Part shown: positions 2,542 through 43,891 of the stretch, piece by piece
Numbering within the stretch: position 1 is the stretch's first letter
Layout of the letters: each line of letters opens with the position of its first letter
Assembly (NCBI GenBank): GCA_020845575.1
Contig: JADLFL010000046.1
Location: 1 to 64,000 of the forward strand
DNA: 64,000 nucleotides
Reading direction: 5' to 3'
Source: Acidobacteriota bacterium
Lineage (GTDB): Bacteria > Acidobacteriota > Vicinamibacteria > Vicinamibacterales > Vicinamibacteraceae
The notes under the pieces: model-generated
Told to the model about the DNA's origin: nothing
The model's database searches: none
The model's input: only the letters and a program-made list of their open reading frames with translations
Program-made: the position numbers and the translations under genes

Positions 2542-4087
2542 ACGACAGATCTCTCCACAGGGCGTTCAGGCGCTCGGCGGCGATACGGGCGTCGAAATCG
2601 CGTTCGACGCGACGGCGCGCATTGGCGATGTAGCGATCACGTTCGCGCAGGGCGGCGACGATGCGATCCGCAACGTTCGCGGCGCGCTCACTGGCGCCGA
2701 ACAGCAGCCCTTCCTGCTGCTCCGGATCGATGAGGCTCTCGTAGCCCGTCGAGCGGTGCGCCACGACCAGCGCACCGGTGGCCATCGCCTCCAGCCCCAC
2801 CATCCCGAGAGACTCGTTGCGCGAGCCGACGAGCACCACGTGCGCCTGTCGATAGAGGTCCGCGATGTCGCGCGTGAACGGCTGCCAGCTCACGTCAGCC
2901 GATGCGGCGACGCGGTCGCGCACCTCGTCGCAGTAAGCGGGGTCGCTGCCGCAGGCCCCGACGATCGTCAGGCGGCAGTCCAGATGCGCGCGCAACTCGC
3001 GGAAGATGTCGAGCACGCGCAACTGCCCCTTCGCCGGCTCGACGCGTCCCACACACAGGCACATCGTCTCCGCCCCATCGCCTCTCGCGCGCACATCGAC
3101 ATCTCTCGCAGGACGAGACTCGAGACACACACCGTCGGAAATGTGCTCGATCCGCACGGCGTCGCCGGCCCGCGCCGCGATCGCATCGCAGACATGCCGT
3201 GACACGCCCACCAGCGCGTCGGCATACGCCATCGACGGCCTGAATCTGTCGACGTCTGTCAGCCTGACGTGCTGCACGAATCGTGCGCCGCGCGTGCGTA
3301 TCAGCGGCGCGCACCACTGCGCGTCGGCGCCGTCGGCGTGCACGACGGCAGGTCGAATCGCGTCCAACGTCTCGAGCAGCGTCGCCGTGTCTGCCGCGCT
3401 GTCCGGCGCCAGGCCTTCGTGTACGGGGACGACAGTGAAGCCGCGTGCCGTGGCGGCATCAGCGAGGTTCGTCCCCTCAGTCACGAGAAACGACACGCGC
3501 GCAGACGACAGGTACGGAAGCGATTCGATCCAGGCCGCGTGCGCACCGCTCTGATACGGCGACGGCAGCATCACCAGCACGCGACCCGATCGCGTGCGTC
3601 TCCGGTCTGGCAAGCGCTGCAGCACCTCGTCGAGCCTCGCTCGCCCGCGCACCATGGTCTCCTGTTGCAGATCGAGCGCTGCCCGCAGACGGGCCTCCTG
3701 CGGAACGTCGAGGAAGGCCTCGGGATCGACCATGCGCCGCACGTCGCGCGACAACGCCGCGACGTCCCGGATCTCCTCGGGCGACAGCAGCGACACCTGC
3801 GCTCGCGTGAGCGCACCGGCCTCCAGCGAGACGCCCGCTGCAACGAGCCGATCGAGCATCTGCGGGATCGTGGTACACCCGGGCACGCCGCCCGCTGCCG
3901 CGACGGCGCTCATCGCGCGCGTCGAGACGATGTAGCAGATGTCGGGACGAACCCCGTCGATCGTGACGAGGTCGAGACCGCGCGTGCGTGCGCGCGCGAG
4001 TGCGTCGGCGATCGTGCGAGGGGGCAGGAGCGCCGCGACAGGGCGCACGACGATCAGGTACTCGAACGCCGCGACATCGAGCCCCAC
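2540..4087 (-). CDS. Glycosyltransferase family 4-like protein with unrecognised N-terminal domain
   Basis: The C-terminal half is a GT-B glycosyltransferase. VGRVEPAKGQLRVLDIF and VVLVGSRNESLGMVGLEAMATGALVVAHRSTGYESLI include the E-x7-E type nucleotide-sugar site typical of GT4 enzymes, which transfer a sugar from an activated donor to glycan or lipid acceptors. The N-terminal ~150 residues are not recognised. The frame is open up to 4399 (619 residues). However, residues around 69-87 of that long version are encoded by a dispersed palindromic repeat (4165-4193) and the stretch before it is Pro/Arg-rich, so I prefer the GTG at 4087 (515 residues). The start is uncertain. No other glycan genes are adjacent. 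Confidence 0.75.
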   Translation of the reverse strand: MGLDVAAFEYLIVVRPVAALLPPRTIADALARARTRGLDLVTIDGVRPDICYIVSTRAMSAVAAAGGVPGCTTIPQMLDRLVAAGVSLEAGALTRAQVSLLSPEEIRDVAALSRDVRRMVDPEAFLDVPQEARLRAALDLQQETMVRGRARLDEVLQRLPDRRRTRSGRVLVMLPSPYQSGAHAAWIESLPYLSSARVSFLVTEGTNLADAATARGFTVVPVHEGLAPDSAADTATLLETLDAIRPAVVHADGADAQWCAPLIRTRGARFVQHVRLTDVDRFRPSMAYADALVGVSRHVCDAIAARAGDAVRIEHISDGVCLESRPARDVDVRARGDGAETMCLCVGRVEPAKGQLRVLDIFRELRAHLDCRLTIVGACGSDPAYCDEVRDRVAASADVSWQPFTRDIADLYRQAHVVLVGSRNESLGMVGLEAMATGALVVAHRSTGYESLIDPEQQEGLLFGASERAANVADRIVAALRERDRYIANARRRVERDFDARIAAERLNALWRDLS

Positions 4088-33329: not shown

Positions 33330-34619
33330 GTGCAGCATCACATCCCGCCGGATCCGTCGAACCCGCAGCGCAACGCCATGGCACGCGCCGTGGAAACGTG
33401 CGTGCACTGCGGCTTCTGCCTCACGGCCTGTCCCACCTATCAGGTGCTCGGCGAGGAGATGGACTCGCCGCGCGGGCGGATCGTGCTGATGAAGCAGGTG
33501 CTCGAAGGCACGCTGTCTGCCGATGACGCACAGCCGCACGTGGACCGCTGCCTCGGCTGTCTCGGCTGCGTCACGGCGTGCCCATCACGTGTGGCGTATG
33601 GCGATCTGCTCGTGCCGTTCCGGTCGTCGCCGGTAACCCGAGGCACATCGACTCTCGATCGCCTGCAGCGACAACTCCTGCTCGACACGCTGGAATCGCC
33701 GGCACTGTTCAGGGTGTCGGCCCGCCTGGGCGCGATCGCGAAGCGCGCCGCGCGCGTACTGCCGGCACGCGTCAGGCCGATGCTCGATCTGCTGCCGACG
33801 CGACTGCCCGAACCGGTGGCCATCCCGCCGCTCGTCAAGCCGATCGGCCCTCGACGCGCCCGGGTTGGCCTGCTTGCGGGATGCGTGCAACAGGCGCTCG
33901 GTCCGGAGATCGCCCTCACCACGGTACGCGTGCTCGCCGCCAATGGCGTCGAGGTGGTGACGCCGCCGCAGCAGGGCTGCTGCGGTGCGCTGGCGCTGCA
34001 CACGGGCGAAGCCGACCGCGCATACGACAGGGCCACGGCGCTCATCAGGGCGTTCCCGCCCGATCTCGACGCGGTCGTCACCAACGCCGCCGGCTGTGGG
34101 TCGGCGATGAAAGAATACGGACACGCCTTCGCGGGGCGCGCGCAGGAGGACGCGCTGGCGGCGTTCTCGTCACGCGTGCGTGACGTGTCGGAGTTTCTTC
34201 ACGCATTGGGCCAGGTGCCGATGCCGCCGCTCGACGAACCGCTGGTCGTGGCCTATCACGACGCCTGCCACCTCTCGCACGCACAGGGCATCCGCCGCGC
34301 GCCGCGCGCGCTGCTCGCGTCGATCCCGAACGTACGGATCGTCGACATCCCGGATGGCGACATCTGCTGCGGATCGGCAGGCCTCTACAACGTCGAACAC
34401 CCGGACATCGCGGACACCCTCGGCGCGCGCAAGGCCCGCGCCGTGGCCACCACCGGCGCCGACGTCCTGACAGCCGGCAACATCGGCTGCCTCGTCCAGA
34501 TCGCGCGCCATCTGAATGCCGCAGGCACCCCGATCCCCGTCATGCACACGATGGTGTTGCTCGACAGGGCGATACGGAATGCTCCGGCAACCGGCAACGG
34601 GCAACCGGCAACAGGATAG
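33330..34619 (+). CDS. glcF: Glycolate oxidase iron-sulfur subunit GlcF
   Basis: 429 residues starting at GTG 33330, 6 bp after glcE. Two [4Fe-4S] ferredoxin motifs (CVHCGFCLTACP and CLGCLGCVTACP) are followed by two CCG domains (QGCCGALALHTGE; DICCGSAGLYNVEHP), the normal GlcF plan. It carries electrons from the flavin subunits to quinone. The last ~9 residues (APATGNGQPATG) are encoded by an intergenic-type heptamer array, so the original stop codon has probably been lost or moved and the tail replaced. The extension is short and probably tolerated. Confidence 0.92.
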   Translation: MQHHIPPDPSNPQRNAMARAVETCVHCGFCLTACPTYQVLGEEMDSPRGRIVLMKQVLEGTLSADDAQPHVDRCLGCLGCVTACPSRVAYGDLLVPFRSSPVTRGTSTLDRLQRQLLLDTLESPALFRVSARLGAIAKRAARVLPARVRPMLDLLPTRLPEPVAIPPLVKPIGPRRARVGLLAGCVQQALGPEIALTTVRVLAANGVEVVTPPQQGCCGALALHTGEADRAYDRATALIRAFPPDLDAVVTNAAGCGSAMKEYGHAFAGRAQEDALAAFSSRVRDVSEFLHALGQVPMPPLDEPLVVAYHDACHLSHAQGIRRAPRALLASIPNVRIVDIPDGDICCGSAGLYNVEHPDIADTLGARKARAVATTGADVLTAGNIGCLVQIARHLNAAGTPIPVMHTMVLLDRAIRNAPATGNGQPATG

Positions 34620-34697: not shown

Positions 34698-36182
34698 CTA
34701 GATCTCCCTCGGCAGAATTCCCTCCCACCCGGCGCGGAAGCGCGGGCGGCGGATGAAGGGGGCGGCTTCGGGGGCGTTGGTGGCGCGCATGGTGCGCCAG
34801 TCCCATTCAATCTTCCTGCCCGTTCGATACGCGACGTTGCCGAGGTGATTGGCTTCCGTGGTCCACGCGGCGTACTGGAAGTTGGAGCCGGGCACCGGTC
34901 CCTTGCCCTTGGCGTGGTCGACCCACTCCACCCAGTGCCCCGGTGAGCGCGGCAGCGTCTCCGGCGGTGGCGTGACGCTCGCGAAACGGTCTTCGGGCAG
35001 GAGCGTCCCGTTGCCGAGGAGCATGCCCTTCTCGCCGATGAACACGCAGGAGCGCGCGCCCCACGCCTCCACCCAGCCGGGCGGCTTGCTGTCGCCCTGG
35101 TGCCATACCAGCGTGAGCGCGGGCTGATCGCCGACGGCGGCGTACTCGTACGTGGCCTTCAGCGTCGCCGGTGCGAGTTCCTTGTGCGGCACGGGAACGT
35201 TCGGCGACTCGGCGTGGACCGACACGGGCGCGAGATACCGCCCTGCCTGCCCATCCTGTCGCCACAAATCGAGCACCGTGTACGGCACGTCGTTGTCGTG
35301 CGATCCGAGATCGCTCATCGTGCCGTTGCCGACGTCCCACCAGCGATACCAGCGCGGGCCCGGGAAATACGTGGCGTGATACGGGCGCTCCGGCGCGGGT
35401 CCGAGCCACAGGTCGTAGTGCAGGTGCGCCGGTACCGGCATCGTCTCCGTGAAGCGATCGACGATCTGGATGCCGTTGTAGAAGCCGTGCGGCTTGTCGA
35501 ACTTCTCGGCAGACGCCGCGTCCTGCAGCCCCCATGCGCGGCTCGCCCACACATGCACTTCGCGCACCTTGCCGATCGCGCCGGTGTCGAGAATCTCCTT
35601 GATGCGACGACGTTGCGGTGACGCGTGTCCCTGGTTGCCCATCTGCGTCGACAGGTGCGGATACTTGCGCGCCGTCTCGCGGACGAGCCGCGTCTCCCAG
35701 ATGTTGTAGGCGAGCGGCTTCTCGCAGTAGACGTGCTTGCCGTGCGTGAGCGCGAGGTACGTGGCGAACACGTGCGTGTGCTCCGCCGTGGCCACGACGA
35801 CCGCGTCGAATGCCTTCGGGTTCTCGAAGACCTTGCGCAGGTCCGTGAACTTCGCGGCCTTCGGATACCGCACGCCAGCCGAATCGAGCGACTCCTGGTT
35901 GATGTCGCAGAGCGCGACGATGTTCTCGTCGGGATGCCTGTCGAGCGGCCCGCTGCCGTCCGTGCGCTTGGGCGGCGCTTCCGGGTTGATCGTCAATTCG
36001 TTGAGGCTCGCGCCGCCACGCCCGCCCGCACCGATGACGGCGATGTCGAGCTTGCCGTTCAGGTTCTGCCCGCGCAACAGCTCCGGCGCGTGCGCCAGTA
36101 CCGTGCCGGCCGCCACCGCGCGCCCCACGAACTCGCGGCGCGTGACACGTCGCACACCAGACCAGACCGTCGTTTTCTTCAC
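34698..36182 (-). CDS. Gfo/Idh/MocA family oxidoreductase with Tat signal
   Basis: 494 residues from a GTG at 36182, preceded by an ideal GGAGGA ribosome-binding site 7 nt upstream. A twin-arginine signal (VTRREFVGRAVAAGTVLAHAPELLRG) precedes the Rossmann domain (KLDIAVIGAGGRGGASL), the EKPLAYN motif with its Lys-Pro, and the GH109-like C-terminal domain (DLGSHDNDVPYTVLDLW, WVEWVDHAKGKGPVPGSNFQYAAWTTEANHLGNVAYRTGRKIEWD). Exported members use tightly bound NAD to oxidise or hydrolyse glycosides in the periplasm. Its start overlaps the DUF4126 stop (GTGA), indicating coupled translation. Confidence 0.87.
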   Translation of the reverse strand: MKKTTVWSGVRRVTRREFVGRAVAAGTVLAHAPELLRGQNLNGKLDIAVIGAGGRGGASLNELTINPEAPPKRTDGSGPLDRHPDENIVALCDINQESLDSAGVRYPKAAKFTDLRKVFENPKAFDAVVVATAEHTHVFATYLALTHGKHVYCEKPLAYNIWETRLVRETARKYPHLSTQMGNQGHASPQRRRIKEILDTGAIGKVREVHVWASRAWGLQDAASAEKFDKPHGFYNGIQIVDRFTETMPVPAHLHYDLWLGPAPERPYHATYFPGPRWYRWWDVGNGTMSDLGSHDNDVPYTVLDLWRQDGQAGRYLAPVSVHAESPNVPVPHKELAPATLKATYEYAAVGDQPALTLVWHQGDSKPPGWVEAWGARSCVFIGEKGMLLGNGTLLPEDRFASVTPPPETLPRSPGHWVEWVDHAKGKGPVPGSNFQYAAWTTEANHLGNVAYRTGRKIEWDWRTMRATNAPEAAPFIRRPRFRAGWEGILPREI

Positions 36183-36778
36183 GTCGTTCCTCCAGAGGGG
36201 CGCACGGCGCGCGCCATGAACGCGAGCGCGCGGCGGGCCAGCCAGAACACGATCACCGTCAGGATCAGCAGGCACACGATCGGGATCACGATCGCGGCAA
36301 TCGCGACGCCCACCGCGCCGGCCGTCTCGCCCGTGGCGACAACGGGATTGGCGAATCCGACTGTCGCCACGCCTGCCTTGGCGCGCACGACGGCGCTGCT
36401 CGCCTTCGTGAGGCCGGCCATGCCTCCGCCACCGATGATCGCGACGGGCCAGAGGATCGCGGGCGGGATGTCCGCCATCACCGCGGCGCTGGCGACGATG
36501 CCTGCGACCACGGCGGCGGGACTCGCGAGCAGGTCGAGCGCGTGGTCGACGCCGGGCACGTAGTACGCGATCACTTCGGCCACGCTCGCCGTCGCCATCG
36601 TGATGAGCGCCGGCGTGCTCGACAGCCATTCGAACCCGTGCGAGAGCGGCAGCACGTCCAAGCGCGCGGCAAGTCCGGCCACGAGCAGCGGCGCGAACAC
36701 ACGGAACCCCGTCGCGGCGGCAAGACCGATCCCGATGGCGACGGCGACCAGCGACTCGAGAGACACGGGGATGGGCAT
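36179..36778 (-). CDS. DUF4126 membrane protein
   Basis: 199 residues from the ATG at 36778; a GTG at 36808 would add ten residues but would overlap the divergent MFS start. It matches DUF4126: LVAVAIGIGLAAATGFRVFAPLLVAGLAA, DVLPLSHGFEWLSSTPALITMATASVAEVIAYYVPGVDHALDLLASPAAVVAG. About five membrane helices, ending with a basic tail. Function unknown. It is upstream of and overlapping with the exported Gfo/Idh/MocA gene. Confidence 0.82.
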   Translation of the reverse strand: MPIPVSLESLVAVAIGIGLAAATGFRVFAPLLVAGLAARLDVLPLSHGFEWLSSTPALITMATASVAEVIAYYVPGVDHALDLLASPAAVVAGIVASAAVMADIPPAILWPVAIIGGGGMAGLTKASSAVVRAKAGVATVGFANPVVATGETAGAVGVAIAAIVIPIVCLLILTVIVFWLARRALAFMARAVRPSGGTT

Positions 36779-36791
36779 GGGCGTGGTGTCG

Positions 36792-38081
36792 ATGGTAGTA
36801 CGTTTCACCTATTGCGCGACGGTCAGACGCTCGGCCATCATCCCGCCTCTGTCGACGCGTCCCCCATATCTCGCCTGCGCCCTCGTCGGACTCGGTGGAC
36901 TGTTCTCCGGGGTCACGGGTCCCCTGCTGTCGACATTCGTGCCGATCCTGGTGCGCGACGCGGTGGGCGACCACCGCTCGCTCATCGGCGCAATCATGGC
37001 CATCGACAACGTGCTGCTGCTCCTGCTCGTGCCGCTGGCCGGCGCGCTGTCGGATCGCGCACGCGCGAGTGGAGGCAGTCGGCTCCCGTTGATCGTCGCG
37101 GGATTGGTCCTCGCCGCGATCGGCATGGCGCTCATGCCGGCGTCGGTGTCGTTCGGCGTCGGCGGCCTCGTGGCGACGATGGTGATGCTCTACGCGGGGA
37201 TCAACCTGGAACGATCGCCGGCGCAGGTACTGGTGGCCGACATGGTGCCATCGCGCTACCGGTCACTGGCGTCCGGCTCGGTCACCTTCCAGATGTGCCT
37301 TGGTGCGATCGTCTTCCTGATGCTCGGTCGCGCGCTGGGCATGCGCGTCGCGTTCACGGTCGCGGCCGTCACCGTGCTGCTCATCGCCGTGGCATTCGCC
37401 GCTGGCCTGCGCACGCCGAGTGACTCGCCCGCGGATCCCGACGAGAGCGCGGCGTCGCTCGTCGCGACGCTCGTGGCCGCGGTACGCGGCACGCTACCGG
37501 GCATTCGCGCCGTGTTCCTCGCGTCGCTGCTGTTGCAGATGACGTTCCAGACGTTCTCGACGTGGTTCGCCCTGCACGGTACCGAGCGCTTCGGCGTGCG
37601 TCCCGAAGACGTGACCGTGGCATTCATCGCCTGGGCGATCGGCGGCGTACTCGGCGCGCTGCCGGCCGGCGCGATCGGCGTCGGGTTCGGGCGCCGGACC
37701 GCGATGCTGGTCGGGTTCGGCCTGATGGCGGCAAGCCTCCTCGCGCTCGACCGCGTCCCGTCACTGAACGCAGCGGCGCCGCTGCTCTGCCTGGCATCCG
37801 CCGCGTGGACGCTCCCGGCGGTCAACGCGTACCCGCTCTTCGTCGAACCGATCCCACCACAGCAGCGCGGGATGGTGTCGTCTGTGTTCCTGCTGTCGAT
37901 GGCCTTCGGCGGCGCAATCGGCGATCCCCTCAACGGCGCCATCTTCGACGCCGCCGGCAGCTACCGCCCGCTCTTCATGTCGATGGCCGTCTACACCGCA
38001 CTCGCATTCATGGCCATGCTGAAGGTCCCACGGGGAGCGGGGGAGGCGGTCGAAGTCCAAAGGGAAGTGGTCAAAGGATAA
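36792..38081 (+). CDS. Major facilitator superfamily transporter
   Basis: About 429 residues if started at the ATG 36792. The first ~20 residues of that version are not typical, and an unusual CTG near 36849 (LSTRPPYLACALVGLGGL) could be closer to the true N-terminus. Twelve membrane segments; the MFS loop-2 motif region reads DNVLLLLLVPLAGALSDRARASGGSR. TRPPYLACALVGLGGLFSGVTGPLLSTFVPILVRD resembles the sucrose/glycoside-pentoside-hexuronide transporter-like branch in style, but substrate cannot be assigned. It is divergent from DUF4126 with only 13 bp between the chosen starts. Confidence 0.78.
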   Translation: MVVRFTYCATVRRSAIIPPLSTRPPYLACALVGLGGLFSGVTGPLLSTFVPILVRDAVGDHRSLIGAIMAIDNVLLLLLVPLAGALSDRARASGGSRLPLIVAGLVLAAIGMALMPASVSFGVGGLVATMVMLYAGINLERSPAQVLVADMVPSRYRSLASGSVTFQMCLGAIVFLMLGRALGMRVAFTVAAVTVLLIAVAFAAGLRTPSDSPADPDESAASLVATLVAAVRGTLPGIRAVFLASLLLQMTFQTFSTWFALHGTERFGVRPEDVTVAFIAWAIGGVLGALPAGAIGVGFGRRTAMLVGFGLMAASLLALDRVPSLNAAAPLLCLASAAWTLPAVNAYPLFVEPIPPQQRGMVSSVFLLSMAFGGAIGDPLNGAIFDAAGSYRPLFMSMAVYTALAFMAMLKVPRGAGEAVEVQREVVKG

Positions 38082-38807: not shown

Positions 38808-38835
38808 TTATCCGTTATCCATTGGACTTTGGACT
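38808..38835. repeat. Heptamer array (TTATCCG, TTATCCA, TTGGACT x2)
   Basis: Four units at exact 7-bp steps to the right of the IS remnant. Together with 38777-38807 it is an imperfect inverted counterpart of 38050-38125 (shared GGATAAGGACAG and GTCACAA words) on the other side. Confidence 0.75.
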
Positions 38836-39399
38836 TTCCTCACGCCCTACACCGAGTGCGTCGGCCACCCTGTTTATGTAGTTGAACCAGGACGCGATCA
38901 GCGTGATTTGCAGGATGCCGCGATCGTCGAAGCCGACGGCGCGCAGCCTGTCGTGGAACGCGGGCGAGATGCGCGTTGCGTCCTTCGTGATCTGCTCGAC
39001 GTACTCGAGCATCACGCGATCCTGATCCGGCAGCGGTACCTGACGGAAGTCCGTCTTCAACGTCTCGACGAATGCCTCGTCCAGCGTGACCCTACGCAGA
39101 AACTCTGCGTGAGATTCCAGTCAATACTGGCACCTGTTGGTCGCCGACACGACGGTGGTGATCATCTCGTGCTGGCGCCGCGTGAGCGGCAGGTCGGGCG
39201 ACATCAGCGCACCGAAGGCCGAGAACCCGTGGAAGAGCGCGTCGGGAATCAGCGAGTGCGACGCCACGATGCCGTCCGTCTGCGCGTGGTGCGGATGCGT
39301 CGGCTCGGCGTACTCGATCGGATAGAGCGTGTGCTGCGCCTCGCGCGCGCGCATCAGCGTTTCGTCGCTGTCGAACGGAACCACCTTGATCCAGGTCAT
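38815..39399 (-). CDS. AhpD/carboxymuconolactone-decarboxylase-type peroxidase, predicted selenoprotein (CxxU)
   Basis: The frame from the ATG at 39399 (AGGAG site upstream) runs 92 codons to an in-frame TGA at 39121-39123, then continues in the same frame for 101 more codons of recognisable protein ([74 protein letters not shown]). Read through, this gives the normal ~194-residue peroxidase-related enzyme. The TGA replaces the second Cys of the NxCxYCxxxH active site: Cys90-Gln-Tyr-[TGA 93]-Leu-Glu-Ser-His97. A SECIS-like hairpin follows immediately. I infer Sec93 in a thiol/selenol peroxidase. The start overlaps the APC permease stop (ATGA). The alternative is a nonsense pseudogene, which the hairpin and intact downstream frame argue against. 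Confidence 0.85.
39094..39110 (-). promoter_or_regulatory. Predicted bacterial SECIS hairpin
   Basis: On the coding strand, ten nucleotides after the TGA, ACGCAGA pairs perfectly with TCTGCGT around a GTT loop. The apical loop begins 17 nt after the UGA and its first base is G, within the published bacterial SECIS rules (apical loop about 16-37 nt from UGA with a G in its first two positions). SelB would bind it to deliver Sec-tRNA. Confidence 0.8.
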
Positions 39400-40730
39400 G
39401 GGAACGACTCCTCCTCACGCGACACCGGCGATCGCGCCTGAATGATACGGTAGACGGGCAGCGCCGCCAGCACCGTCACGGCACCGAGCAGGGCCAGCAG
39501 CGGGTTGCTCGCGCCGACGAGCACCAGCAGCACGCTCACCAGCAGCAGGAAGACGATGGCCGGCCACGGATGCATCGGCACGACGATCGACGGATCGCGG
39601 CGTCGCAGGACGAACACACCCACCACCGTCGCGGCGATGAACGCCACCACGATGAAGACGAAGAACGCGACGATCGACTCGAACGTGCCGATCGCCACGA
39701 GCAGCGAGGCCAGGATCGCCTGCGTCGCGATCGCGCGCGCCGGCGTCCCCCATCGCGGGTGGATGGCGGCCACGGCACCCGGCAGCACGCCGTCGCGCGC
39801 CATCGCCGTGTAGATCCGCGGCGCGATCATCTGCATCGCGCCAAGGCTGCCGAAGACGCAGACGATGACGATGGCCGCAACGACGGTGCCGCCGCCAGGT
39901 CCGAGCGTCGCCTCGCCAACCTGGGCGATGAACGCCTGCCCTTCCACGACCTCGCCTATCGGCACGACGGCAATGAACGACATTGTCGCCGCGACATAGG
40001 TGAGCGTCACGATGGCGAGCCCGATGAGGAGCGCTCGCGGCAGCGTCCACGACGGATCGCGCACTTCGCCGGCGATCCTCGTGACTTCCCACCATCCGCC
40101 GAACGAGAAGAACGCGGCGACGAACGAACCGGCGGCCGCGCCGACGAGCGGCGGTGCGCCGGGGTGTCGTGCGACGAACGGCACGAAGCGATTCCAGTCG
40201 GCAGCCGGACTGCTGAACGCGGCGACGGTCAGTGCCGCGACGAGCACGACCTTGAGTACGGCGATGGCGGTCAGCAGTCGCACGCCGAGCGTGACGCCGG
40301 CGATGTGGACGGCGGCGAACGTCGCGATCGCACCAATGGCCACCAGACGCATGCCCACATCGCCCATCGGGATGACGTACGCGACGTAGCCTGCCAGCCC
40401 GGCCGCCAATGCCGCCGTGATGCCCGGGTCCATCAACAACAGGCACATCCAGCCATACAGGAACGCGATCCGCAGGCCGTACGCCTCGCGCAGGTAGACG
40501 TAGCCGCCGCCGGCCTGCGGATAGCGCGATGCGAGCGCGCCGTAGCACAGCGCGCCGCACATCGCCATGGCCCCCATCACGCCCCACACAACCAGGACGC
40601 CGAGCGGCGACGCGATGCTGCGGATGATCGATCCCGGCGTGAGGAAGATGCCGACAGCGATGACCTGGCCGACGACAAGCGCGACCGCCGCCCACAACCG
40701 CAGCGGCCGCGCCGAGACAGACTCGGTCAT
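39396..40730 (-). CDS. APC-family amino acid permease
   Basis: 444 residues from the ATG at 40730 with 12 membrane helices. LWAAVALVVGQVIAVGIFLTPG carries the APC helix-1 unwound Gly motif, and FFSFGGWWEVTRIAGEVRDPSWTLPRALLIG the helix-6/loop signature (here WWEVTRIAGEV for the usual YExxxxxAEEx). It is a cytoplasmic-membrane amino-acid importer or exchanger of unknown substrate. It starts 1 bp after the TonB-receptor stop, and its own stop overlaps the AhpD-like ATG. The three form one tightly packed operon, possibly outer- and inner-membrane uptake plus a redox enzyme. Confidence 0.88.
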   Translation of the reverse strand: MTESVSARPLRLWAAVALVVGQVIAVGIFLTPGSIIRSIASPLGVLVVWGVMGAMAMCGALCYGALASRYPQAGGGYVYLREAYGLRIAFLYGWMCLLLMDPGITAALAAGLAGYVAYVIPMGDVGMRLVAIGAIATFAAVHIAGVTLGVRLLTAIAVLKVVLVAALTVAAFSSPAADWNRFVPFVARHPGAPPLVGAAAGSFVAAFFSFGGWWEVTRIAGEVRDPSWTLPRALLIGLAIVTLTYVAATMSFIAVVPIGEVVEGQAFIAQVGEATLGPGGGTVVAAIVIVCVFGSLGAMQMIAPRIYTAMARDGVLPGAVAAIHPRWGTPARAIATQAILASLLVAIGTFESIVAFFVFIVVAFIAATVVGVFVLRRRDPSIVVPMHPWPAIVFLLLVSVLLVLVGASNPLLALLGAVTVLAALPVYRIIQARSPVSREEESFP

Positions 40731-40731
40731 C

Positions 40732-43692
40732 TCAGAACGTGGCGCGCACGGCGAACTGGAACGCGCGCGGCCCGCCCGATCCGAACACGCCGCCCGCTGT
40801 CGAGATCGCCTCACCGAAACCCGAGGAGCGCATGTAGCCCGCCGACGTCGGATCGCCGCTGTCGCGCACGAGCACGTTGGCGTACCCCGAGTAGTTCTTC
40901 ACGCTCGAGCCGAGCACGTTGGTCACGTTGAAGACGTTGAAGACCTCGACGATGGGTTCGACGCGCACGCGACCGCCGCCGATCGCGAACGGACGCGACA
41001 CGCGCAGGTCCACCGACGCGAACCCGTCGCTGAATCGTGCATCGTCTCGCACGTACGGCAGCAACTGGCCGTCGACGCCGCCCGCGGCGTTGAGGGTGGC
41101 CAGCGCCGCGTTGAGGTCTGCGCCGGTCTTGAACAGCCGGCCACCGGCGTTGCGCTGGAATGCCGGCACGCGCGACTGCCCGTCGGGCATGAGGATGTCC
41201 ATCGGCACGCCTGACGCCAGCGTCATGATTGGCGCGACTCGCACGCCGGCCGGTGCCTCCATCCACGCCGCCAGCGCGAAGCGGTGGCGCTGATCATTCG
41301 GCGTCGGCCCGTACTCGCGGCGCAGGTCGTTGGGGTCGAGCGGCCCGTTGGCGAACGGGATCTGATCGTCGTTGGCGTAGTTGAACGCCTTGGCGAACGT
41401 GTACGACGCGCGGAAGCCGAGGCGCGCGCTGCGGCGTTCGGCGCTCACGAGCAGGGCGTCGTAGCGCGTGCCGACGCTCGACTCGAGGTTGACGACACGA
41501 TCGGGCCCGCCGACGACGGGATTGAAGACCTCGCCGATGTCGCGCCCGATGATGAAATGCGATCCCGCGGCGTGGATGCCGTCGACGCGCAGCACCGTGT
41601 TCCACGGGAGCTCGCGCTGGAACCCGAGGTTGAACTGCTGCACGCTCGGGTTCTGCATCGCGTTGTCGATGATGTTGATGCCCGACGCGCCGGCGCCCGG
41701 CAGGATGAAGCCCGTGAACGGGTTCGCCGTCGACGGGGCGAACGGCGGGAACCGTCCCGTCATCGGGTCGAGGAAGAACACGTTGCCCGCGCGCACTTCG
41801 ATGGGCAGCGCACGCCCGTCGAGACCGCGCTCGAGCGACTGGATCTGCAGCGTGATGCGGTCGTAGTAAATCCCGTAGCCGCCGTGGACGCTCATGCGGC
41901 CGCCGTCGGGCGCCCAGTTGAAGCCCACGCGCGGCGACCAGTTGTTCATGTCGCGCTTCCGCGTGCCCTTCAGGAAGGGTGCGACGATCGGATTGATGTT
42001 CCCGACGCGGCTGATGTTCTTCACGTCGGTATCGAACTCGTAACGAAGGCCGACGTTGAGCGTCAGGTCCGGCCTGACGCGCCAGTCGTCCTGCACGAAG
42101 AACGCCACGTGATGGTTGTCGGCATCGGGCAGCTTCAGGCCGCGGTCGGGAAAGGCGCTGCGCAGCGTGACCGCGAACAGCAGATCGCCATCGTCCACGC
42201 GACCGTCGCCGTTGGCGTCGTAGCTCGGGAAGTCTTCGACGAGTTCGATACGCCCGTCGAGGAACACGTCGAGGTCGAACAGCGCGTCGACGCGCTGCCA
42301 TTCGCCGCCCACGCGCAGGCCGTGCGCACCACGCGTCCAGGACAGGGTGTTGGCCAACTGGAAGCGCTTCTGCGTCGTGCCCTGCGGCACGCGGAACGAG
42401 GAACCGTCGAGCATGCTCGGGAACGTGTACTGCGGCCCGCGCGCGACGGGCACGATCGTGTTGTCGAACGTGCTGAACGACGTCGTGAGTGCGTTGACGA
42501 TCGACGGGCTCACGATGCGCGTCCACGTGCCGACGACCGACTGATACGCATTCCTGCTGCGCTGGCGATACGACGCCGAGCCGATCGCGCGATCGAGCGT
42601 GCTCGCGCCCGTGTCTTCCGCACGCTCGCCGGCGTAGCGCACGCTGAGCGAGTCCTCGGAGCCGAATCGCACGTCGATGCGGCCGGAGCCCAGGAGATCG
42701 TCGAGCGGCGCCGGAGCGAACGACCTCCGGATGGTCCGCGCTGCGACGTCGCGCTCACCCACCAGCACCGCGCCGTTCTGGTTGCGATACTCCGCGGCGA
42801 CGAACCAGAACGCCCGTCCGGGTGCGAGCGGACCGCCGAGCGCTCCCGCGATCTGCTGGCGGTCGAACGGCAGCGACTCGCCGCTCGATCTGTCGTACGT
42901 GGCGGGCAGCGCCTGCCACGCGCTGTCGCGCGCGAAGAACGAGAGTGACCCGCGCAGGCTGTCCGTTCCAGAACGGGTCACCACGTTGATCGATGAGGAT
43001 GCCGATCGACCGAGCTCCGCGGTGAACCGCTGCGTGGCGATCTGGAACTCCTGCACCGCCTCCTGCGTGACGTTCTGCAGCGGACCACCCACCACGTCGT
43101 CGTTGTTGTCGGCGCCGTCGATCGTGATGTTGCCGCCCCGACCGAGCTGACCGGCCGACGAGATGACCACGGTGTTGGACTTGGTGGGATCGAAGTTCGG
43201 TGCGGGCGTGTTGCCCGGTACGAGCAGCGCCAGTTCGAGGAAGTTGCGACCGTTGAGCGGCAGGACGTCGATGGCCGCCGACGGGATCACGGCGTCGACG
43301 ACCGAGCGCGTGGTGTCGACGGCCGCGGCACCGGCGGTGACCGTGAGCGACTCGTCGATGCCCGCCACGCTCATGTCGATGTCGACAACGAGCGTCTGCC
43401 CTACTTCGAGGAGGAGTCCGCGCCGTGCGACGTCGGTCAATCCCGGTGCAGACACGGCCACGTCGACAATCGCCGGCGGGAGATTGGCGATGAGGAAGCT
43501 CCCGTCGGCCGACGTCGGCACTTCGCGCGTCGCGCCTGTTGCCGGCGCGGTCACGGTCACGCGTGCTCCGGCGATCGGCGCGGACTGCGCATCCTGCACA
43601 CGACCACGGATCGTCGACGTCACCTGCGCCTGCGCCGTCGTCGACAGCACGCCCAGCATCATCCCCACCATCCACACACACGCGTATCGCAT
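40732..43692 (-). CDS. TonB-dependent receptor with carboxypeptidase-regulatory N-terminal domain
   Basis: About 986 residues. The first Met of the frame is at 43701 (MKRMRYACVWMVGMMLGVLSTTAQAQ); the second, at 43692, leaves the signal peptide intact. CarboxypepD_reg-like domain about 27-110 (IRGRVQDAQSAPIAGARVTVTAP), plug domain with DVLPLNGRNFLELALLVPGNTPAPNF and NITIDGADNNDDVVGG, AELGRSASSSINVVTRSGTDSLRGSL, then a barrel ending FQFAVRATF. Typical Oar-type acidobacterial receptor. It heads the operon with the APC permease and the predicted selenoprotein, so its ligand may be a peptide or amino-acid derivative; this is inference. Confidence 0.88.
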   Translation of the reverse strand: MRYACVWMVGMMLGVLSTTAQAQVTSTIRGRVQDAQSAPIAGARVTVTAPATGATREVPTSADGSFLIANLPPAIVDVAVSAPGLTDVARRGLLLEVGQTLVVDIDMSVAGIDESLTVTAGAAAVDTTRSVVDAVIPSAAIDVLPLNGRNFLELALLVPGNTPAPNFDPTKSNTVVISSAGQLGRGGNITIDGADNNDDVVGGPLQNVTQEAVQEFQIATQRFTAELGRSASSSINVVTRSGTDSLRGSLSFFARDSAWQALPATYDRSSGESLPFDRQQIAGALGGPLAPGRAFWFVAAEYRNQNGAVLVGERDVAARTIRRSFAPAPLDDLLGSGRIDVRFGSEDSLSVRYAGERAEDTGASTLDRAIGSASYRQRSRNAYQSVVGTWTRIVSPSIVNALTTSFSTFDNTIVPVARGPQYTFPSMLDGSSFRVPQGTTQKRFQLANTLSWTRGAHGLRVGGEWQRVDALFDLDVFLDGRIELVEDFPSYDANGDGRVDDGDLLFAVTLRSAFPDRGLKLPDADNHHVAFFVQDDWRVRPDLTLNVGLRYEFDTDVKNISRVGNINPIVAPFLKGTRKRDMNNWSPRVGFNWAPDGGRMSVHGGYGIYYDRITLQIQSLERGLDGRALPIEVRAGNVFFLDPMTGRFPPFAPSTANPFTGFILPGAGASGINIIDNAMQNPSVQQFNLGFQRELPWNTVLRVDGIHAAGSHFIIGRDIGEVFNPVVGGPDRVVNLESSVGTRYDALLVSAERRSARLGFRASYTFAKAFNYANDDQIPFANGPLDPNDLRREYGPTPNDQRHRFALAAWMEAPAGVRVAPIMTLASGVPMDILMPDGQSRVPAFQRNAGGRLFKTGADLNAALATLNAAGGVDGQLLPYVRDDARFSDGFASVDLRVSRPFAIGGGRVRVEPIVEVFNVFNVTNVLGSSVKNYSGYANVLVRDSGDPTSAGYMRSSGFGEAISTAGGVFGSGGPRAFQFAVRATF

Positions 43693-43891
43693 TCGTTTCA
43701 CCCCTCGAGCGGCCAGTCACCCGCCGCCAGCACGAGACAAACGCATAGCGTGGCGTGTGCGCGCGCGCACGCCCACACTCGGTTCGGACTATCTCGGGCC
43801 ATGCGTTTGGACTATGACGGACGTCAGCAGGGCCGAACGGGACGGGCGACCTGTCCACCGCAGCCAGGAGGGCGACGGTGGAAGTCCGGCC

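Follow-up and report, generated by a model that had tools for sequence, protein, structure and literature searches.

We identified, on the minus strand of a stretch of Acidobacteriota DNA, a gene of the AhpD/CMD family that, judging from comparative sequence evidence, almost certainly encodes a functional selenoprotein with Sec at codon 93. The window, meaning the whole stretch that was analysed, is 64,000 nucleotides long. The gene (38815..39399, minus strand) starts with an ATG at 39399-39397 and continues, with 92 sense codons in total, to a TGA at codon 93 (39121..39123, minus strand), which is followed by 101 further codons and a TAA at 38817-38815. Reading the TGA as Sec93 would give a protein of 194 amino acids. 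The TGA is the sole interruption of the frame, with no further stops and no frameshifts, and the motif around it (...TNRC-Q-Y-TGA-L-E-S-H...) places it at the second Cys position of CxxC. The frame is well fixed because the ATG overlaps the TGA stop codon of an upstream permease gene as ATGA and because the MTWI start of the protein is kept in the aligned relatives. A plus-strand reading of 38815-39399 yielded no family sequence and was rejected. The preliminary description of this DNA had given the frame, the position of the TGA, the codon counts and the motif correctly but had not named the strand, which is minus; its claim that nothing else breaks the frame was borne out by the minus-strand translation. 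Standard gene calling would split the gene at the TGA.

The upstream gene (39396..40814, minus strand) encodes an APC-superfamily amino-acid permease (Pfam AA_permease_2), and upstream of the permease lies a gene for a TonB-receptor-like outer-membrane protein with a carboxypeptidase-regulatory domain (40732..43701, minus strand). The latter is likely the first gene of the selenoprotein's transcription unit, co-transcription being suggested by overlap and strand, and translation of the selenoprotein is probably coupled to that of the permease. Elsewhere in the window, positions 33330-34619 (plus strand) encode a GlcF-like iron-sulfur subunit of glycolate oxidase, whose score of 304 bits falls slightly short of the cut-off of 333 bits, and positions 36182-36808 (minus strand) a DUF4126 protein (Pfam PF13548). 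When the window was screened by GC3 and a nearby Cys for further genes interrupted by TGA, seven weak candidates emerged.

A search of the source genome for selA, selB, selC and selD found all four, on separate contigs. The tRNA-Sec (contig C12) scored 65.3 bits and has a UCA anticodon, SelA (C23) scored 496 bits, SelB (C54) lay 328 bits over the cut-off with its C-terminal region matched by a family model too, and SelD (C27) scored 334 bits. As both tRNA-Sec and SelB are present, the objection that the preliminary description had raised against itself, a genome devoid of selB or selC, does not apply. The selD gene (genome G000, contig C27:5467-6393, minus strand, locus L024) has an in-frame TGA of its own in the GUASK motif, at the catalytic position, which makes SelD a second selenoprotein of this genome.

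Protein family, active site and predicted catalysis

Searched as a whole, the frame matched the NCBIfam model TIGR01926 ('peroxidase-related enzyme') at 101.2 bits, above the cut-off of 81.8; the match extends from residue 47 to 185 and so spans the TGA. Residues 61-105 matched the Pfam CMD domain (PF02627; 35.7 against a cut-off of 23), and solved AhpD-like structures likewise matched the sequence through the TGA. Two related models of AhpD-domain (seleno)proteins, NF041238 (alkylhydroperoxidase-related; 54 bits, cut-off 175) and NF053654 (YciW-related; 35 bits, cut-off 310), gave scores far under their cut-offs, so the protein is a member of neither. The AlphaFold model of the selenoprotein is all-helical (pLDDT 89), and its best matches in the PDB are the AhpD or peroxidase-related structures 6k40, 2pfx, 3c1l and 2prr (TM 0.68-0.80). 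These four and 2oyo are Cys-type proteins of the peroxidase-related AhpD group that have the same fold and active-site layout at 23-32% identity, and they carry Cys where the window protein has Sec.

The proton relay of AhpD consists of Glu118, Cys130, His132, Cys133 and His137 in the Mycobacterium tuberculosis enzyme and of Glu36, Cys48, Tyr50, Cys51 and His55 in Pseudomonas aeruginosa PA0269 (PMC3141380). The corresponding residues of the window protein, Glu78-Cys90-Tyr92-Sec93-His97, are spaced identically to both Glu-Cys-(His/Tyr)-Cys-His relays, indicating that Sec replaces the second active-site cysteine that both enzymes have at this place. The chain topology of M. tuberculosis AhpD differs from that of the window protein. 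In the alignment, Glu78, Tyr92, position 93 and His97 do not vary, and L045, a relative described below, is the only one to have lost Cys90. By profile score, modelled fold and relay the window protein is assigned to the TIGR01926/AhpD-like branch of the CMD superfamily; the TIGR01926 and PF02627 matches and the relay spacing thus agree with the earlier proposal of an AhpD/CMD-family protein with TGA at the second redox Cys.

By analogy with the family, the active site in the all-helical AhpD fold would be the five-residue relay, with Sec93, the counterpart of M. tuberculosis AhpD Cys133 and PA0269 Cys51, as the redox-active nucleophile. Sec93 would reduce a peroxide or a comparable oxidised substrate and thereby become a selenenic acid, which Cys90 would resolve as a Cys90-Sec93 selenylsulfide, and a cellular thiol or dithiol would recycle the enzyme. 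We consider catalysis as such a thiol-recycled peroxidase via Sec93 the somewhat favoured reading. Where the preliminary description spoke of a peroxidase, the family membership was upheld, and the activity itself is a prediction from the family.

A less probable reading, though one to be taken seriously, keeps the same Sec insertion and makes the protein a thiol/selenol oxidoreductase, a dehalogenase-like or another enzyme that acts on an amino-acid-like compound imported by the permease, with no role as a general peroxidase. A permease gene lies directly upstream, on the same strand and within 400 nt, in 30 of the 77 loci with enough flanking sequence, several of them with the ATGA overlap, and a TonB-receptor-like gene lies beyond it in 13. 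Such a linkage would be unusual for a simple peroxidase, yet many relatives have no adjacent permease. The debrominase Bmp8 uses the same fold, but the match to it is weak (13% identity). A long branch parts the clade of the window protein from other TIGR01926-like selenoproteins. Against this reading, the Sec members have all kept the complete Glu-Cys-Tyr-Sec-His relay of AhpD. Since translation appears to be coupled to that of the permease, the substrate of the selenoprotein may perhaps, speculatively, be linked to the imported compound; the permease context suggests such a link and offers a handle on the substrate of AhpD-like selenoproteins. A text search of the literature gave no earlier description of the permease pairing, though one may exist. 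On the downstream side, 17 other relatives have as their neighbour a gene for a repeat protein that looks FG-GAP/VCBS-like on visual inspection.

Conservation of the TGA codon across relatives

Homologues were aligned at position 93 in two collections. From a phylum sample of 396 genomes, a close group of 28 members was formed, consisting of the window's own protein and 27 relatives that are 60-89% identical to it. All 28 have TGA at exactly the codon-93 column and none has another in-frame stop, so the random stop codons in close relatives that the preliminary description had said would count against it were not encountered. The second collection, of named genomes, comprises relatives from Acidobacteriota, Gemmatimonadota, Latescibacterota, Planctomycetota, Zixibacteria and KSB1; here TGA is present in 79 of 80 relatives and TGC in one (L146, Latescibacterota). 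Column 93 holds Cys in L045, L146 and the PDB homologues. In comparisons with congeners, dN/dS was 0.075-0.098 after the TGA, below the 0.15-0.30 found before it. The codons downstream of the TGA are, by this measure, under strong purifying selection, which indicates that the region is translated and selected.

A TGC-to-TGA change in a single genome would look the same at this locus as a selenocysteine codon, so that the two parts of the frame could in principle be the broken pieces of a Cys-type gene. The recurrence of the same TGA in both collections across several phyla, with no other stops, and the low dN/dS after it refute this reading, to which we give a negligible probability. Equally improbable, and rejected on the comparative data, is a reassigned code (TGA as Trp or another residue) or read-through by something other than Sec, either of which would explain the open frame, because TGA serves as an ordinary stop for the neighbouring permease gene, relatives show Cys and not Trp at the aligned residue, and tRNA-Sec, SelA, SelB and a SECIS are present.

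The distribution of SelA follows that of the TGA codon. SelA was found in all 28 close-group genomes, compared with 64% of the phylum sample. Among the matches listed, 91 genomes have a TGA-bearing homologue and 22 have stop-free homologues only; SelA was found in 85 of the former and 11 of the latter (Fisher p=8e-6, kinship ignored). Of the six TGA-homologue genomes with no detected SelA, three (G104, G140 and G341) carry a tRNA-Sec scoring 69-73 bits and the others are MAGs that are 72-75% complete. G341, with no SelA and a decayed hairpin, was considered as a possible TGA genome devoid of Sec machinery and was rejected as such on its 72.8-bit tRNA-Sec.

The two relatives with Cys at column 93 differ in their surroundings. 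L045, from a genome of the same order (G014; 68% identity), has in addition Thr at the first Cys (TRYC) and has lost the hairpin codons described below; SelA is absent from G014, and the best tRNA-Sec candidate there scores 47.1 bits, about what a tRNA-Ser would score. Judging from its sequence, L045 may have ceased to be an enzyme of the CxxC type. L146 (positions 3001-3573) has TGC for TGA and retains the exact 17-nt SECIS hairpin in a genome with SelA, which points to a probable recent Sec-to-Cys change. In the tree the two Cys rows nest separately inside the Sec clade, making two independent Sec-to-Cys changes from a Sec ancestor the likely direction. The clade would thus provide a natural series for Sec loss, with one change in a genome that lacks Sec machinery and the other with its SECIS intact.

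The SECIS hairpin

The RNA directly 3' of the UGA reads CUGGAAUCUC-ACGCAGA-GUU-UCUGCGU. Its last part forms a predicted bacterial SECIS hairpin (39094..39110, minus strand) of 7 bp with a 3-nt apical loop (GUU, a G followed by a U; 39101..39103, minus strand), 17 nt from UGA to loop and an MFE of -8.5 kcal/mol. These values agree with all of the published bSECIS criteria, namely a loop of 3-9 nt, a stem of 4-16 bp, G in the first two loop positions, a spacing of 16-37 nt and an MFE <= -7.5 (PMC13188914), and the hairpin is the sole match to this pattern in the genome.

The hairpin codons (+4 to +9) show a synonymous codon identity of 0.94 among the 28 proteins, compared with 0.475 +/- 0.065 for other six-codon windows: CAC, GAG and CTG are used in all 28, TTT in 27, GCA in 26 and CGT in 25. 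The GUU loop is present in all 28 clade members, and the identical hairpin 17-mer in 72 of the 80 named loci, making this compact SECIS unusually invariant. Among 20 distant Sec homologues, most stems read ACGG(G/A)G(A/C)...(T/G)CUCCGU, and the loop is GGG, GGA or GUU in 18 of the 20, with the G kept and then U or G. The stem covaries: 13 sequences have exchanged C-G for G-C at one pair, and the next pair is A-U or G-U. When 41 distinct sequences are taken together, paired cells make up 92%, compared with at most 59% for slid partners. In two distant TGA-bearing homologues, L076 (G341) and L062 (G191), the hairpin is poorly paired at the usual place.

A codon-preserving folding-energy test on the 48-60 nt downstream of the TGA gave a weakly negative value, which did not surpass that of a control stretch upstream, and the MFE z-scores of the region 3' of the TGA were unremarkable; energy alone was therefore not taken as evidence. 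A Rfam scan of the locus gave no match, including at the hairpin. The case for the SECIS is built on the conserved synonymous codons, the covarying stem and the agreement with the published model. With machinery and SECIS both identified in the sequence, the ribosome, SelB-GTP and Sec-tRNA-Sec would, guided by the hairpin, insert Sec at codon 93. The proposal of Sec93 in the preliminary description is upheld, at the level of sequence, by the machinery, the SECIS, the invariant TGA column and the Sec/Cys replacement.

Relation to known AhpD-like selenoproteins

AhpD-like CxxU selenoproteins were described from the Sargasso Sea in 2005 (27 sequences; PMC1088965) and from the GOS in 2008 (299 + 70 sequences; PMC2398784), and a 2026 inventory lists an 'AhpD-like protein, TIGR01926, CxxU' (PMC13188914). 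The window protein is therefore no new kind of selenoprotein, and calling it new, as the preliminary description did, was an overstatement, even though the same text rightly stated that such proteins had been reported from metagenomes, which in the 2005 and 2008 reports came from the sea. What the locus adds is a very strongly supported case in uncultured soil bacteria. The published proteins share with it the family, Sec at the second CxxC position, a SECIS directly downstream and TIGR01926.

The window protein falls in a clade that may be distinct from the published AhpD-like proteins, of which MCB9421940.1 is one example. In the tree, a fully supported branch, 2.4 changes per column long, separates the clade from 19 other sampled TIGR01926-like Sec proteins. 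Its members have a conserved N-terminus (MTWI/MAWI) and the near-identical 17-nt SECIS, and the matches of the window protein to NCBIfam include no model dedicated to the clade. A deep clade of its own, spread across several phyla, with a near-invariant SECIS and frequent permease coupling, appears to be undescribed. That it represents a distinct Sec-AhpD subfamily of Acidobacteriota, Gemmatimonadota and others, whose members act together with an amino-acid-type permease on a particular imported compound and not as general peroxidases, is a tentative proposal that we think rather doubtful. Following Sec, members of the clade mostly read SHAEFLRR, as against H-H/A-G-x-LR in the other TIGR01926-like Sec proteins.
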